64,000 bases of DNA, from assembly GCA_902511575.1 (NCBI GenBank), contig CABXFU010000001.1:1-64000 (forward strand), written 5' to 3'. The translations under genes and the position numbers were made by a program. The notes beneath the pieces are model-generated. The model saw only the letters and a program-made list of their open reading frames with translations. It did not search any database and was not told the origin of the DNA. Positions 1 to 9,070 of the stretch are shown here, one piece after another (positions within the stretch are counted from its first letter, which is position 1; every line of letters starts with the position of its first letter). Origin of the DNA: an uncultured SAR86 cluster bacterium (GTDB taxonomy: Bacteria > Pseudomonadota > Gammaproteobacteria > Magnimaribacterales > D2472).

Positions 1-1
1 T

Positions 2-1105
2 GGCAGTAGCAGTAGTTCCTCAAGCAGTAGCAGTTCCTCTGGCAGTAGCAGTTCCTCATCACCAGGCTCTTCGGAAGGAAGTTCAACTGGCATGCAAAGC
101 ACAGCAAGACGTTTTGATGTCTATATGGCAGGTATTATTGGGTTTCAGGATGACGAATCAGCAAACGATCAATTAGCTTCAATCAGAACACAAGCTTCTA
201 ACTTACCAGAAATAATCTATTTTTCATCCCTTGGTGATGTAGAGCTAGAAGCACCACTGAGTATTGCAGCTTTCCCAACAAATAATTTCACAACAAATTG
301 GAGCAAAGTTGATACTGGTAACTGGGTTCTTAGTTTTGGCGATGAGTTTCTCACTAATACACCTGTTACGTATACTTCTCGGTCTGAATTCAGTATGAAT
401 CTTCAAGATGATGGTGCCCAGATTGATGGAGGCTCTGCAGGTAATGCAGATAGTATGAGTGGTCTATTTGTAAGCTATAACAGCTCAGATTCAACTGATG
501 TAGATCTTTACCAATCTATGCCAGAGAACACGAGCTATTCAACTTGGGGGTTCTGGAGCTTATCTGCCTCAGATGCTGCTAGTGCAACAGACTCAGTTAG
601 TGCTTCGGTGAATACTGGTTTTTGGGTGGCAGGCGAGGGAATTTCTTTTAGTGATCTTCCTACTTCTGGCTCTGCAAGTATGAGCGGCACTGCTTTGATG
701 GATGTGGCTTATCGCTATGATCAATCTGGTTCTAACTATGGTGTTCAAAGATATCAAACAACGGCTGATGTAGCTGCAACTTTTAATTGGGGCTCTAGTA
801 GCTGGTCTGGCACTATGACTGTTAGTAATTTTGATCAAGATAACCCGATAGTAAGCAATGCAGGCTTTACATCTTTCTTATTTGAACTTGATCCAAGTTC
901 AAATACTTTTTATAGCGCTGATTCAACTGATGTTTTAGACAATGCTTGGCAGGGTGGTGCTTCTGTAGCTGGGCAATTTTTCGGAGACTCCTCACCTGAG
1001 CAAACTGGTGGGACTATTAATATGAATCTTTATAAATCTGGCTCCACTGATACGAGCGGTGCAAATGATTTTTATGTTGCAGAGGGCATTTACCTACTTG
1101 ATTAA
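2..1105 (+). CDS. Surface/secreted protein, C-terminal part (5' end outside window); Ser-rich linker followed by a TbpB-like beta-barrel region
   Basis: Frame stays open to the window edge upstream of the listed ATG at 92 (GSSSSSSSSSSSGSSSSSSPGSSEGSSTG-MQST...). C-terminal 'GQFFGDSSPEQTGGTINM' resembles the closing strands of transferrin-binding-protein-like barrels. Confidence 0.6.
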   Translation, partial: GSSSSSSSSSSSSGSSSSSSPGSSEGSSTGMQSTARRFDVYMAGIIGFQDDESANDQLASIRTQASNLPEIIYFSSLGDVELEAPLSIAAFPTNNFTTNWSKVDTGNWVLSFGDEFLTNTPVTYTSRSEFSMNLQDDGAQIDGGSAGNADSMSGLFVSYNSSDSTDVDLYQSMPENTSYSTWGFWSLSASDAASATDSVSASVNTGFWVAGEGISFSDLPTSGSASMSGTALMDVAYRYDQSGSNYGVQRYQTTADVAATFNWGSSSWSGTMTVSNFDQDNPIVSNAGFTSFLFELDPSSNTFYSADSTDVLDNAWQGGASVAGQFFGDSSPEQTGGTINMNLYKSGSTDTSGANDFYVAEGIYLLD

Positions 1106-1295
1106 ATTTTCATATATAGAGGCAAATACTCTGCAAAAGTGGCTTTTAATTAACTAGAGAACTCATAATCCAAATATAAATTATTTACATTTTCCGACAA
1201 AATATCGGTTTTCTGTTTATTTTTTGATAAAATATCGATTTATTTATTATTAATTTCATTATTTATTTTTATAAACATTGACTTACTGCTCTAAT

Positions 1296-3371
1296 ATGAA
1301 AAATCTATATCTTTATATCTTAACTTCAACATTTATCTTGGCTGGCTGTGGCGGCGGAGGGGGTGGCGGGGGCGATAGCGCAGGTCCAGCACCAACATCA
1401 GTTATATTAACAATAGGACTAACATCTTTTTCCACAGATGAAGATACAACTTATAGAGGTGTATTAAATGCAACAGCAAATGAAACGGTTACATTAAATT
1501 ACGATATTACATCATCTCCTGCAAATGGAGCTCTTACATTATCGTCCAATGGGAATATTGAGTACAACCCTAATACAAATTTTTTTGGTTCTGATGAATT
1601 TCAATACTCGGTAACTGCTGCTGGAACAAATGTTACGAAAAGTGCAACAGTTAGTATTTCAGTTAATCCAGTTAATGACCCACCTTCAATCACACTAACT
1701 CAGCTTGCTGCAGATGATAGTACAGACTACCCTCTTTTTATTTCAGACTCTGGTTTGCTTGAGGTAGCAATCAACATAGATGATATTGATAATGAAACAT
1801 CATCTTTGACAATTGAAGCTTCAAGCTCTCAGGGCGATATTGAACTTAATTACGATACTGTTCAGTCGACCTCTTCTGCAATAATTGATTTATCTCAAAT
1901 CAACCTATCTGGCAAAGTTGATATTATATTAACAGTTAGTGATGAAGAGTATTCTGTCTCTGATACTTTGAAATTATGGTATGCAAAAAAACTGATCACC
2001 GAGGATGAAAATCTTGTATATACCCTCAAAGGAAATAATTCAGATCCTTCAAGGAAAATTAATAAAGCACTAATAGTCGATTCAATGACAAGTAATTTTA
2101 TCTTACAAGCAGTTAGAGCTAGCTTCAAAGAACTCATTCGTTTCATTGGAGCAAATGACCTAGATGTTTTTATTGACAAATATTTCAATATTTTAGTAAT
2201 TGAATATCCCATTGGCTCATCATCTAGCCTTGGAGTGGAGATTGGTTGCAATGAGACAGATGAAGATATATTTTGTTTTGAAGCAGATTTTATTCAGCGT
2301 GTGAAAGGTGAAACCGCAAAATATTTTAATGATGTTGATGATTATTCCGTTATTACAGGAGTTGATGGAAGAGGCGCTGCATCTGTAAACGACAAGCTTA
2401 GCGTGCAGCCATTAATCAGTGATGATGAAACTGAAATAAATGATCTTTTATACACACTCAAGCATGAGTTTGGCCATACATTTATGGATTTAAATGATGA
2501 GTATACAGATGATTTTAATGTTCTATTTGAATGTATTGATACTACTGATTTACCTGAGCTAGAATGCGGTAACGTTGATAGTACTCCAAACACTTCAACT
2601 CAAAATACTCCTGAGAGCATAAGGTGGAATCATCATTTTACAGATATAAATAATGTGCCTGGTTATGACGAGGCTAACTCTATTACTGGAATCGGTATTT
2701 ATGAGGGCACGTATTATGGAACAGAAGATACATATAGACCATCTTATGAATCTATAATGAATGGCGGGGTTGATAATTCTGATGTTACAGATTATCGGCT
2801 TAGCAGAAAAATAGATAAAGGTGTTGAGTGGGATGCTATAGGTCAAGAAGTTTTTGAGATCAAGTCTTTAATTAATCAAGGAATGCATGATATTAATGTT
2901 GACTTTGATGATAACGGAAATGTAATTGTTACACATGGATTAAATGTATCAGAAAGCGACTATAGTATTAATTGGTATATCGATGGAGTGTTAGACGACT
3001 CCTTGATTAACAACCCATCAGTAACTTTGACGAAAAAAGAATCTGGAGTTTCTTCAGTTGCTTATAGAATTTCTTCCTTAGGCAACACAAAAATTGTAGG
3101 CACTGATGATCCGGCTAAAATCAGAGACTTTTATGATGGACTTTTAAGCAGCTATCCTGATTTTTATTATTGTCGCGAGTCATATATTGATACAGAAGGA
3201 TACAATCAACCCTATTGCAAAGTTACAGCCAGAGTATGGACAACAAGCAGCTCAGTATTTCCTGTTTTTGAAGCCACAATAGATGAAGCGATGAACTATC
3301 CTGACGTTACTTATTTGATTGAGCTGTCTGGTCTTGGAGCTCAATACGCTATTAGATGGGAGAACTTTTAA
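1296..3371 (+). CDS. Lipoprotein with cadherin-like N-terminal region and M64-type (IgA peptidase-like) zinc metallopeptidase domain
   Basis: Lipobox LAGC followed by GGGGGGGG; 'NPVNDPP' cadherin-like signature; 'HEFGHTFMDLNDEY' zinc motif. ATG at 1296 preferred over TTG at 1278. Confidence 0.7.
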   Translation: MKNLYLYILTSTFILAGCGGGGGGGGDSAGPAPTSVILTIGLTSFSTDEDTTYRGVLNATANETVTLNYDITSSPANGALTLSSNGNIEYNPNTNFFGSDEFQYSVTAAGTNVTKSATVSISVNPVNDPPSITLTQLAADDSTDYPLFISDSGLLEVAINIDDIDNETSSLTIEASSSQGDIELNYDTVQSTSSAIIDLSQINLSGKVDIILTVSDEEYSVSDTLKLWYAKKLITEDENLVYTLKGNNSDPSRKINKALIVDSMTSNFILQAVRASFKELIRFIGANDLDVFIDKYFNILVIEYPIGSSSSLGVEIGCNETDEDIFCFEADFIQRVKGETAKYFNDVDDYSVITGVDGRGAASVNDKLSVQPLISDDETEINDLLYTLKHEFGHTFMDLNDEYTDDFNVLFECIDTTDLPELECGNVDSTPNTSTQNTPESIRWNHHFTDINNVPGYDEANSITGIGIYEGTYYGTEDTYRPSYESIMNGGVDNSDVTDYRLSRKIDKGVEWDAIGQEVFEIKSLINQGMHDINVDFDDNGNVIVTHGLNVSESDYSINWYIDGVLDDSLINNPSVTLTKKESGVSSVAYRISSLGNTKIVGTDDPAKIRDFYDGLLSSYPDFYYCRESYIDTEGYNQPYCKVTARVWTTSSSVFPVFEATIDEAMNYPDVTYLIELSGLGAQYAIRWENF

Positions 3372-3898
3372 TGAAAAATATACAAATAATAATCCTAAGC
3401 TCGCTATTTATAGCTCTACTTGAAGGGAATGATCAAGAGATTCAAAACTTTCAAAATCAAATTACTGAAAAAAAAGATGAAGCGATCTCCCTAAATATTG
3501 ACTTTAACCCCCATACATCACAAATCAAATTATCATTGCCTAGATTAGATTTAATTAAGAGAAAAGATATAGGTATTTCAGATACAAATTATAAAAATGA
3601 TTATGAGAAATCAAGATTTAAAAAACAAATATCTTCAATCCCAAGATCCAGTCAATTTATTATTCACTTAGATAACAATGATAAGATTTATAAAATAACA
3701 AATGTAGGTAATATTTTTGCTTTAGATGTATCACATACTAGGGCTCATGAGAAAAAATTAATACACTCACACTCATCTAGCGCCACTTTAAATTTGAGTG
3801 CCATGGATTTGCGTCAAAATACTTCAATCATATTAGCTACCAAAGAAATAGAGTCTTTTAAAGTTCTTGAAGCTGTTTCATTTGGTCGTAAACCATGA
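3371..3898 (+). CDS. Hypothetical secreted protein
   Basis: ATG overlaps the upstream stop (TAATG); hydrophobic N-terminus MKNIQIIILSSLFIALL. Confidence 0.55.
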   Translation: MKNIQIIILSSLFIALLEGNDQEIQNFQNQITEKKDEAISLNIDFNPHTSQIKLSLPRLDLIKRKDIGISDTNYKNDYEKSRFKKQISSIPRSSQFIIHLDNNDKIYKITNVGNIFALDVSHTRAHEKKLIHSHSSSATLNLSAMDLRQNTSIILATKEIESFKVLEAVSFGRKP

Positions 3899-3935
3899 TT
3901 TTTACTTAAAGAAAACCTAGAACTATGTTTTAACC

Positions 3936-3955
3936 CCAGCATTTGCATTTGCTGG
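3936..3955 (+). terminator. Possible weak hairpin downstream of the accessory operon
   Basis: CCAGCA-tttgcatt-TGCTGG inverted repeat; poor U-tract. Confidence 0.25.
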
Positions 3956-3974
3956 CTTTCAATCAATCAGAGCC

Positions 3975-4018
3975 CTCATAATCCTTGGTCGGAGGTTCGA
4001 GTCCTCCCGGGCCCACCA
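3975..4018 (+). pseudogene. 3' half of a tRNA gene (CAT anticodon, Met or Ile2 type), truncated; candidate att site
   Basis: CTCATAA loop, then T-arm GGAGG-TTCGAGT-CCTCC, CGGGCCC-A-CCA 3' end. No matching 5' acceptor strand (GGGCCCG) or D-arm upstream. Confidence 0.75.
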
Positions 4019-4033
4019 TTCCTAATAGCAAAA

Positions 4034-4507
4034 TTATTTTTGGTTTATTTCAGCGTAGACTTCGCTTGTGCCATCTTTAAAGAGGATTAAAACTTTGTAT
4101 GGCATCAATCGATCTCCGACTTCCATTCCAGGGGATCCTATAGGCATACCAGGTACTGACAATCCAATGGCGTTAGTATTTTTCTCAGAGAGAAATTGTG
4201 CAATATATTTGCTTGGGACATGCCCCTCAAAAATATAGCCATCTTCAGAGACCGCGGTATGACATGATCTATATTCTGGCTTAATATTAAATTTCTCTTT
4301 GATCTCCACCAGGCTTTGATGGTCTTTTGTGGCTGGATTAAAACCATTACTTTCAAGATGCTTGACCCATTTCTTGCAGCACCCACAAGTTGGAGTTTTA
4401 TGAACTAATAGTGAAAACTGATTATCAATTTCCTGACCTTGAAGTTCAAAGGCGCTCAATGTAATTGAAAATACAAAAAATATTTGGCTAAAAAATTTAA
4501 TATTCAT
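4034..4507 (-). CDS. DUF411 family protein (putative metal-binding)
   Basis: 'HKTPTCGCCKKWVKHLESNGF', 'CHTAVSEDGYIFEGHVP', 'VPGMPIGSPGME' family signatures; N-terminal signal. Confidence 0.85.
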   Translation of the reverse strand: MNIKFFSQIFFVFSITLSAFELQGQEIDNQFSLLVHKTPTCGCCKKWVKHLESNGFNPATKDHQSLVEIKEKFNIKPEYRSCHTAVSEDGYIFEGHVPSKYIAQFLSEKNTNAIGLSVPGMPIGSPGMEVGDRLMPYKVLILFKDGTSEVYAEINQK

Positions 4508-4547: not shown

Positions 4548-5966
4548 TCACGGCATAATCACCGCTTTAGTTTCTAGGCACTCTTCTAGACCATGAAGAC
4601 CATGTTCTCTGCCATTACCAGAAGATTTGTAACCCCCAAAAGGTGCTCCTGTTCCTCTCGCACCGCCATTGATAATGACTTGTCCTGCTCTAATTTTTCT
4701 TGCAACTTTGTTAGCATGCTCGGGTTCACCCTGAACGTATCCGGCTAACCCATATTCAGTATCATTGGCCATCTCGATCGCTTGCTCTTCTGAATCATAT
4801 TTAAGAATTGATAAGACTGGACCAAAAATTTCCTCTCTTGCAATGGTCATGTCATTGGTGACATTTGCAAACACAGTTGGTTTTACATAGTACCCTTTTT
4901 CATAACCCTCAGGCTTTTCAATGCCACCAGCAACCAAGGTTGCCCCTTCCTCAATGCCAATTTTGATCATTCTAAGGATCTTTTCATACTGAGGTTTGTT
5001 CGCAATAGGGCCAATTCTAAATTCTCCCTGTGGATCACCAACAGTTGTACTATTTGCAGTTTGAGCAGCAACTTCGACAGCTTTCTCATAATTTTTCTCA
5101 GAAACCAACATTTTTGTTGGCGCATTACATGACTGTCCTGAGTTTAAGAAGCAATGCCCGGCACCACCTTTCACAGATTTCTCAAGATCCGCAACATCAT
5201 CCAGAATAATATTTGAGGATTTGCCCCCAAGCTCTTGATGCACTCTTTTCACAGAAACAGCAGATGCTTGCGCTACTGCAATTCCAGCTTCGGTTGATCC
5301 TGTAAAAGACATCATGGCAACATCTGGATGGTCTGATAAGGCAGCTCCTACAATCGGACCATACCCATTCACTACATTAAACACACCTGCTGGCACTCCG
5401 GCTTTGTCAAATATCTCGGCAAGCAGGAGTGCACAATATGGAGAAATTTCACTAGGCTTCAACACCATAGAACATCCAGCCGCAAGAGCAGCTGATGCTT
5501 TGGTAGTAATTTGATTCATGGGCCAATTCCATGGGGTTATCATTCCAATAACACCAATAGGCTCTCTTATTAATGTGTAGTCACCTTCTTTTTTTTCAAA
5601 TTCATATTCTTTTAGAGCATCCAAAGTTTCATGTAAATTTTTAATTCCTGTTGATGCTTGGGCTTTTTGTGATAACCAGGTAGGAGCACCCATTTCTTCT
5701 GTAATAACTTGGACTAAATCATCATAGCGATTTTCATATTCGGTAATAATATTATTTAAGATATCAATGCGATCTTCTTTTGAGCTAAATTGATATGTTT
5801 GAAAGGCATCAGATGCTGCTGATACTGCTTTATTGATATCCTCTTTTGTTCCAGAAGTAACATGCCCTATGAGCTCTTCATTTGCAGGATTGATAATCTC
5901 AATTCTTTCCTTTGAATCTGATTCAACCCATTGACCGTTTATATAGAAATTTAATTTATCTTTCAT
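4548..5966 (-). CDS. Aldehyde dehydrogenase family protein
   Basis: 'FTGSTEAG', 'HQELGGKSSNIILDD', 'NSGQSCNAPTKML' catalytic Cys motif. Confidence 0.93.
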   Translation of the reverse strand: MKDKLNFYINGQWVESDSKERIEIINPANEELIGHVTSGTKEDINKAVSAASDAFQTYQFSSKEDRIDILNNIITEYENRYDDLVQVITEEMGAPTWLSQKAQASTGIKNLHETLDALKEYEFEKKEGDYTLIREPIGVIGMITPWNWPMNQITTKASAALAAGCSMVLKPSEISPYCALLLAEIFDKAGVPAGVFNVVNGYGPIVGAALSDHPDVAMMSFTGSTEAGIAVAQASAVSVKRVHQELGGKSSNIILDDVADLEKSVKGGAGHCFLNSGQSCNAPTKMLVSEKNYEKAVEVAAQTANSTTVGDPQGEFRIGPIANKPQYEKILRMIKIGIEEGATLVAGGIEKPEGYEKGYYVKPTVFANVTNDMTIAREEIFGPVLSILKYDSEEQAIEMANDTEYGLAGYVQGEPEHANKVARKIRAGQVIINGGARGTGAPFGGYKSSGNGREHGLHGLEECLETKAVIMP

Positions 5967-7313: not shown

Positions 7314-8501
7314 ATGGAAAAAGATATAGACATTATCATTTATGGGGCCACCGGGTTTACTGGAAAACTTTGTGTTAAATATTTTCAATCATTAAATACA
7401 ACAGTCACCTGGGCAATGGCTGGAAGAAACTTAATAAAGCTGCAAAAGGTTGCTGATGATCATCAAGCAAAAGTAGAAATTTTATTAGCTGATTCAGATG
7501 ATGAAAGTGCTTTAGATAACTTAACTTCAAGAGCAAGGGTGATTTTATCGACAACCGGACCTTTTCATAGATATGGATCTAAATTGGTAGCATCTTGTAT
7601 CAAGAATCATGCTCATTATGTAGATATTACTGGTGAAAACTTTTGGGTTAAGGGTTTAATAGAGAAGCATCATGCAGAGGCATCAGCAAAAGGTATCAGA
7701 ATTATTCCTTCATGTGGATTTGATTCCATACCATCTGATTTAGGAGCATTTTTTTCAGCTCAAGCTATTGGTAAACCAATTAAAAGAATTGAATCATTTC
7801 ATTCTTATAAGGGAGGCGCATCAGGAGGAACTCTTGAGACAATGTTCTCAATGGGAGAATTAGATCTTGGTGATGATCTCACAAATCCATTTTTACTCAA
7901 TCCAAAAGACTCTTACTCTGATGAGCAAATGCAACTGAGCAGCGACAGAGTTGGCATTGCAAAAAAATCTGAAATTAATGCATGGTCTGGGCCTTTTATC
8001 ATGGCCACTGCAAACACTAGAGTCGTAAGAAGAACGGAGGCATTACTTGCATTAAGGCAGGAATCTTATGGCCCTGATTTTACTTATCAAGAACATGCCT
8101 TTCACAAGAGTTGGTGGAGTGCAGCAAAATCACTTGTCTTAACTGGACTCTCAGTTTTAATACTTCTGTCTCCCTTGAAGAGATTGGTAAAGCCTTTCTT
8201 GCCAAAGCCTGGAGAGGGGCCGTCTGAGACTGTCCAAGAGAATGGATGGTTTGATTGTAAATTTATTGTTGAAGCAAATGATGGCACTAAATCAGTTTTT
8301 AATATGAATGGAAAAGGAGATCCAGGATATAAAGTTACTTCAAAATTAGTTTCTGAATGCGCACTATGTTTAATTGAAGATCAGGACACGCTGCCCGGTG
8401 GAGGCGAATATGGTGGCATTCTTACAAGCGCCTCTGGTTTAGGTGAATCGTTGATCGCAAGACTTAAGAGAGTAGGAATAAACTTTGAAGGACCTCTATA
8501 A
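7314..8501 (+). CDS. Saccharopine dehydrogenase / trans-acting enoyl reductase-like protein
   Basis: 'IIIYGATGFTGKLCVKYF', 'STTGPFHRYGSKLV', 'CGFDSIPSDLG', hydrophobic segment in the C-terminal half. Confidence 0.85.
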   Translation: MEKDIDIIIYGATGFTGKLCVKYFQSLNTTVTWAMAGRNLIKLQKVADDHQAKVEILLADSDDESALDNLTSRARVILSTTGPFHRYGSKLVASCIKNHAHYVDITGENFWVKGLIEKHHAEASAKGIRIIPSCGFDSIPSDLGAFFSAQAIGKPIKRIESFHSYKGGASGGTLETMFSMGELDLGDDLTNPFLLNPKDSYSDEQMQLSSDRVGIAKKSEINAWSGPFIMATANTRVVRRTEALLALRQESYGPDFTYQEHAFHKSWWSAAKSLVLTGLSVLILLSPLKRLVKPFLPKPGEGPSETVQENGWFDCKFIVEANDGTKSVFNMNGKGDPGYKVTSKLVSECALCLIEDQDTLPGGGEYGGILTSASGLGESLIARLKRVGINFEGPL

Positions 8502-8548
8502 ATTATGTACAGATCAATTAAGCTAGTAGTTACTTAATTATTTTTTAG

Positions 8549-9070
8549 GTGATGAGCATGAAGCGAGCTTTAATTCTTTTAATATTATTTTCAATGAATA
8601 CCCATGCGATGCCCTTAGATGAGCCTCAAGCCTGGCAAGGAGTTACTGATCAGGTTATGGGTGGAGTATCTAATTTAGCTATAAGACATGCTGATGGAGT
8701 ATTTTATATGAGTGGCAATGTTTCAACTGATAATAATGGTGGCTTTGTAAGACTTTCAAATAGAATCAATATTAATAGCAATGATTTCAAGGGCATCAAG
8801 TTCAAAGCCAAAGGTAATAATGAAACTTATGAAATTCATGTAACTCTGAAGGGTTTAAAAATTCCTCCATGGTCATATTTCAGTCAAGGATTTGATGTAA
8901 ATGATGATTGGCAAGAGTACGAAATATTTTTTAAAGATTTGAAAAGAAGTTCTGGATTCTCAGCCGCACCAATGAAGGCAAAAAATATTAGAGATTTGAG
9001 TATTGCAGGATTCGGAAGAGACTTTAAAGTAGATCTAGCAATTAAAGAGATTAGCTTGATTTCTAATTAA
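8549..9070 (+). CDS. CIA30 (NDUFAF1-like) family protein
   Basis: 'WQGVTDQVMGGVSN' start motif and 'GGFVRLSN' typical of CIA30 domains; signal-like N-terminus. Confidence 0.8.
   Translation: MMSMKRALILLILFSMNTHAMPLDEPQAWQGVTDQVMGGVSNLAIRHADGVFYMSGNVSTDNNGGFVRLSNRININSNDFKGIKFKAKGNNETYEIHVTLKGLKIPPWSYFSQGFDVNDDWQEYEIFFKDLKRSSGFSAAPMKAKNIRDLSIAGFGRDFKVDLAIKEISLISN

Follow-up and report, generated by a model that had tools for sequence, protein, structure and literature searches.

The 64,000-nt stretch of DNA analysed here (the window), which forms the start of contig C1 of an uncultured SAR86 genome (G000; 1.39 Mb, 25 contigs, 83% complete), most probably records a site-specific island insertion at the anticodon loop of tRNA-Met(CAT), with half a tRNA gene left as the displaced original 3′ end (probability about 0.88). 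We observed both ends of the island, its empty site, the identical island in a second lineage and recurrence at the same tRNA. SAR86 is among the most abundant uncultured bacterial groups of the surface ocean. Its genomes are small and hold almost no dedicated integrases, and one tRNA gene used repeatedly to acquire surface and metal-handling genes offers a concrete, mappable route of gene gain.

At positions 3975–4018 the window reads CTCATAATCC-TTGGTCGGAGGTTCGAGTCCTCCCGGGCCCACCA, comprising a 7-nt anticodon loop with CAT at 3977–3979, a variable region, a T-arm (GGAGG/TTCGAGT/CCTCC), the 3′ acceptor strand CGGGCCCA and then CCA; the 5′ acceptor strand and D-arm are missing. This bears out the first-pass annotation, which had described these 44 nt in the same terms. 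Neither ARAGORN nor Rfam (gathering threshold) called a tRNA anywhere in the window, indicating that the half is truncated. A BLAST search aligned it with the intact tRNA-Met(CAT) of its own genome (98% identity over 47–48 nt, E = 1.1e-16), a match beyond chance, and that gene (C19:1369–1445, minus strand) is the sole other strong copy in the 1.39-Mb assembly. The match opens with the first base of the anticodon loop, and one nucleotide is deleted from the half, in G000 as in G004, an independent SAR86 single-cell genome (AG-313-N18). A 12-nt anticodon-loop match inside the island (1161–1172) was considered as a second attachment remnant and rejected, being compatible with chance.

Table 1. 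Features of the window at and around the tRNA half
Feature	Position	Strand	Basis
Predicted right part of the island (rest on C19 and in the contig gap)	1–3974	.	Comparison with G004; absent from the empty site
Giant surface protein, C-terminal part: Ser/Gly-rich repeats, then a domain with a weak TbpB_B_D match	2–1105	+	
Palindrome CCGACAAAATATCGG, probable operator of the island TetR	1194–1208	.	
697-aa putative lipoprotein, Ig/cadherin-like domains and a sub-threshold peptidase M64 match	1278–3371	+	
180-aa secreted-like protein, family unknown, last island gene	3356–3898	+	
Element side of the attachment site, ending in 9 nt ATCAGAGCC directly 5′ of the anticodon-loop core	3957–3974	+	Comparison with G004 and G018
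3′ part of tRNA-Met(CAT), anticodon loop to CCA	3975–4018	+	Sequence reading; comparison with the intact tRNA and empty sites
DUF411 protein, first backbone gene	4034–4507	−	19 nt after the intact tRNA in G009 and G010
Aldehyde dehydrogenase (ALDH), backbone	4548–5966	−	

Two relatives, G009 and G010, have an empty site, at which rpoD, (yrbL), one intact tRNA-Met, a 19-nt spacer, DUF411 and ALDH follow one another without interruption. The flank 3′ of the window's half (TTCCTAATAGCAAAATTATTTTTGG...) is the one that follows the intact tRNA in both genomes, and the post-CCA sequence TTCCTAATAGCAA[A/G]ATTATTTTTGG is common to all three. The 5′ side of C19 matches G010 across rpoD, yrbL and the tRNA, ending just past CCA. 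From this comparison, the ancestral order was rpoD-yrbL-tRNA-DUF411-ALDH, and the insertion falls between the anticodon loop and the half. This fragment is best read as the distal attachment site and as the 3′ end that the tRNA gene originally had in the chromosome, and the intact tRNA on C19 would now have an element-borne 3′ end. Positions 1–3974 would then be the right part of the island, and 4019 onward the backbone. Base composition did not separate them (island 35.7% GC, backbone 37.0 ± 1.4%). The same layout had been predicted from the window alone, with the island to the left, the surface genes of 1–3.9 kb inside it and the DUF411/ALDH side in the backbone, and the relatives that lack the island agree with it: the surface genes are absent from the G009/G010 empty site and near-identical in G004, and the DUF411 side sits directly behind the intact tRNA. 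Nor are these genes conserved at the locus; relatives of the cadherin/M64 gene occur in many genomes from other SAR86 genera, but among the sampled members of its own genus the gene is found elsewhere only in G004.

The empty site also bears on the idea that the half is a random tRNA pseudogene or a fragment brought by a phage, with no attachment site. T4-like viral contigs do bear an identical full tRNA-Met, but the exact start at the anticodon loop, the retained chromosomal 3′ flank and the divide between island and backbone refute this explanation, to which we give next to no credence. IMG/VR matches to the 3′ tRNA sequence were considered as attachment sites and rejected, as they are full phage tRNA genes. 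On two T4-like contigs (L123:1874–1950 and L124:7551–7627), the tRNA-Met(CAT) is identical to the one in this SAR86 genus and neighbours a tRNA-Arg, which suggests that these may be phages of this host group.

The occupied site of G004 has both junctions at the same bases as that of G000. Island DNA is 99.7% identical between the two genomes in every segment, against 90–97% in the flanks, with 12 differences over positions 1–3974 and 3–10% divergence beyond 4019. On the right, differences resume at 4063, 45 nt from the half; on the left, they resume 116 nt ahead of the tRNA. The comparison shows a block between the tRNA repeats that, judged by these divergences, has its own history. Shared junctions together with this identity contrast argue strongly against an assembly or binning chimera, which might be suspected because the window starts at a contig end in a low-complexity repeat and C19 is just 3,164 bp long; with the junctions reproduced in a single-cell genome whose flanks are diverged, a chimera is in practice refuted and we hold it to be highly improbable. 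Alternatively, the island may have moved between lineages by homologous recombination through its flanks, the tRNA repeat being the record of an old insertion. The very low divergence within the island fits such a transfer, as do the first 500 bp of the right flank, which at 3% are slightly less diverged than the later flank, but the exchanged stretches would have had to stop almost precisely at the attachment site on either side, and we consider this route improbable.

Contig C19 holds rpoD, a yrbL-like gene, the intact tRNA, a gene for a TetR-type regulator and the start of a TPR/Slam-type gene, at which the contig ends. It is not joined to C1 in G000, nor are the corresponding contigs joined in G004, in which each of the two contigs breaks off within the giant gene, adjacent to its repeats. 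We infer a physical linkage of C19 and C1 across the gap from the empty-site order, a two-site palindrome and the gene order of a second locus. The palindrome, CCGAYAAAATRTCGG, occurs exactly twice in the assembly, at C19:631–645 (in the tetR–slam interval, at the slam promoter) and in the window before the cadherin gene. At the second SAR86 locus, tetR, slam and the giant gene stand in a row, the last as one open reading frame of 2,050–2,160 aa, which matches the end of G004:C35 in its first part and window positions 92–1105 in its last. By homology, the gap of about 6 kb in G000 would be filled by one giant surface-protein gene, and the usual length of that gene gives an estimate of about 11 kb for the whole island. 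The first-pass annotation had expected an intact tRNA-Met(CAT) with the same 3′ end outside the window; the gene is there and its orientation fits an island lying to the left, but it sits on a separate contig and its place upstream depends on the linkage just described.

The island would then hold, in order, the gene for the TetR-type regulator, a divergent Slam-type outer-membrane gene and the genes for the giant protein, the cadherin/M64-like lipoprotein and the small secreted protein. The Slam-like protein has TPR domains and a PF04575 match below cut-off (E = 0.0017). The giant protein, whose gene adjoins slam, combines a FecR-like N-terminal part, Ser/Gly repeats and a C-terminal part that matches the TbpB barrel weakly and below cut-off (PF01298, E = 0.0016), and is a probable, still putative, Slam substrate. 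Compared with the second-locus copies in the same genus, the island Slam, giant protein and TetR are about 75%, 51% and 44% identical, and G000 and G004 each carry both sets. The promoter palindrome is of the type TGATAAATTGTCA at the second locus and CCGATAAAATGTCGG in the island; since the two differ, control by the island TetR is probably limited to its own two operons. This regulator had no relative in IMG/VR. A TAA flag in the second-locus (C9) TetR copy was considered as the sign of a pseudogene and dismissed, because it fits a normal stop codon. The locus recurs in SAR86 (L169, L173, L174, L178 and others), each time as tetR, slam and a giant cadherin-repeat protein of about 2,050–2,160 aa with a TbpB-like C-terminal part; it has the look of a Slam-type system for surface proteins in free-living bacteria of the ocean.

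The insert is bounded by direct repeats, the intact tRNA and the 3′ fragment, which lie on one contig in G001, G018 and G021 and on separate contigs in G000 and G004. In G000, G004 and G018 the fragment begins at the first base of the anticodon loop. The 9 nt before the core recur in G004 and in the unrelated G018 cassette, and this pattern matched in 3 of 107 SAR86-family genomes. On the insertion reading, incoming DNA would have brought its own 3′ tRNA copy, so that the tRNA beside rpoD and yrbL was restored with a 3′ end from the element, and the original one was pushed away to become the half. Strand exchange in the anticodon loop, most likely by a tyrosine recombinase, would have taken place between the chromosomal tRNA and a circular form with the 3′ tRNA copy. 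The enzyme class, its supply in trans and the circular form are steps that we infer.

A nearby integrase had also been expected, and here the result went the other way. The genome has two PF00589 genes (300 and 302 aa), which we take to be XerD- and XerC-like; the assembly holds only these, and no integrase was found in the assembled parts of the island, about 6 kb of which fall in the unsequenced gap. The rest of the genus yielded just two more PF00589 matches, a 529-aa integrase (G018) and a fragment (G012). Across the SAR86 family, three integrase-family matches were found in 11 of 107 genomes and two or fewer in the others, as expected for XerC and XerD. We lean, by a little, towards a recombinase that acted in trans and was not encoded by the island. 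If it was instead an autonomous integrative island, inserted by the same mechanism, its integrase would have been lost after insertion or would lie in the contig gap, leaving it now immobile. The gap could hold unseen genes, an integrase included, in a genome that is 83% complete, and the 1-nt deletion that the half has in both G000 and G004 is what an ageing site might show. However, the two G004 contigs that end inside the giant gene leave little room, the contrast between a 99.7% identical island and flanks differing by 3–10% suggests recent movement, and three other, fully assembled cassettes at the same site also lack an integrase; we regard an autonomous origin as rather unlikely.

Those three cassettes run from the intact tRNA to the 3′ half on single contigs, measure 1.2–1.6 kb and contain one gene each: a GST-like gene in G001, a gene for a 330-aa protein in G018 and a CobW-like gene in G021. 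None contained an integrase. G012 shares with G021 the tRNA and the neighbouring FG-GAP gene and lacks the CobW cassette. In other relatives the interval from the tRNA to ALDH holds zinc-transport or other genes, with no detectable half. In G016 (L081:8617–13519) and G020 (L084:5605–10507), zinc ABC transporter-like genes, a CobW-type GTPase and a WD40 protein lie between tRNA-Met and DUF411; beside the tRNA, G020 carries a further CobW gene, which in G016 seems reduced to a scar. On contig C30 of G007 (L072:5273–5330), tRNA-Met is intact up to the anticodon loop (CTCATAA) and is followed by unrelated sequence to the contig end 400 nt on, which may reflect either a disrupted tRNA or a misassembly.

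The halves of G021 and G001 are each accompanied by two pairs of 8-nt repeats spaced 11 nt apart (GGTAACCA and AGTTATCA). Across the 107 genomes, the combined repeat pattern was found only at these two sites and at a third in G048, which belongs to another SAR86 genus, about 600 bp past its tRNA-Met; a reversed control pattern gave three scattered matches. On an IMG/VR contig (L195), this motif also flanks a tRNA-Lys whose neighbour is an integrase with an Arm-DNA-bind domain, and the G018 integrase gene has similar paired repeats of its own upstream, which is why we read the repeats as integrase arm sites. In G018, the tRNA part and the 57 nt that follow, with a GTGAACACC pair, recur behind the half, the pattern expected when elements that share one attachment site insert in tandem. 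Within 220 bp of each of its ends, the window's own island showed no paired arm-type repeats. In G048 (L202, about 8280–8922), tRNA-Met is followed by small open reading frames and a GGTAACCATATGGTAACCACAAAGTGAGTTATAAAAT stretch shared with G021; there is no 3′ half, and a photolyase-like gene comes next.

Tentatively, the tRNA-Met of SAR86 may collect minimal cassettes, made of cargo and a phage-type attachment site with arm sites and no integrase, that a phage or plasmid recombinase or the host Xer system inserts in trans. If true, this would amount to an integron-like gene-exchange site for streamlined SAR86 genomes. No helper integrase for the tRNA-Met cassettes was identified. The contig with the 529-aa integrase (G018:C7) was considered and rejected in this role, since its paired repeats are of the GGTAGCA type and those of the G018 cassette of the GTGAACACC type, and it has no tRNA-Met fragment. 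This contig (L125; 7,952 bp) encodes, besides the integrase (Arm-DNA-bind and catalytic domains) with paired GGTAGCA repeats upstream, a run of small secreted proteins; similar genes lie near the integrase fragment in G012:C5, and G018:C7 is possibly a SAR86 mobile element.

The SAR86 island has the structure by which tRNA-targeted islands are defined, integrase excepted. As in the islands catalogued by Islander/TIGER, an intact tRNA and a displaced 3′ fragment stand in direct orientation and the element restores the tRNA, and the anticodon-loop crossover is their subsite A (PMC4383910). Islander drops candidates without an integrase and those shorter than 2 kb (PMC4383910); in contrast to that set, the SAR86 cassettes were found without an integrase, and three are just 1.2–1.6 kb long. 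Standard island finders that require an integrase would miss these tRNA-Met insertions. Tycheposons of Prochlorococcus and Methylophilaceae, as described in PMC10872708, have a tyrosine recombinase and span 4–200 kb; they resemble the SAR86 island in their streamlined marine hosts, a tRNA-Met(CAT) border and cargo genes, but the recombinase that this description includes was not found in the SAR86 island outside the unsequenced G000 gap. The SAR86 site also resembles fGI-2, an additive flexible genomic island of Ca. Methylopumilus, in which the last 20 nt of tRNA-Lys recur between cassettes that start from 330 bp and one gene (PMC10872708). Both sites have recurring copies of the end of one tRNA and variable cassettes; they differ in tRNA and lineage, and the anticodon-loop crossover, empty sites and arm repeats were mapped in SAR86. 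CALINs, integrase-less hitchers, likewise have no recombinase of their own between sites and are thought to be moved in trans, but they use integron attC sites (PMC11389934), whereas the SAR86 site is a tRNA gene with phage-type attachment sites. The insertion itself is ordinary, a textbook route of gene gain; its repeated, integrase-free form in SAR86 deserves attention.
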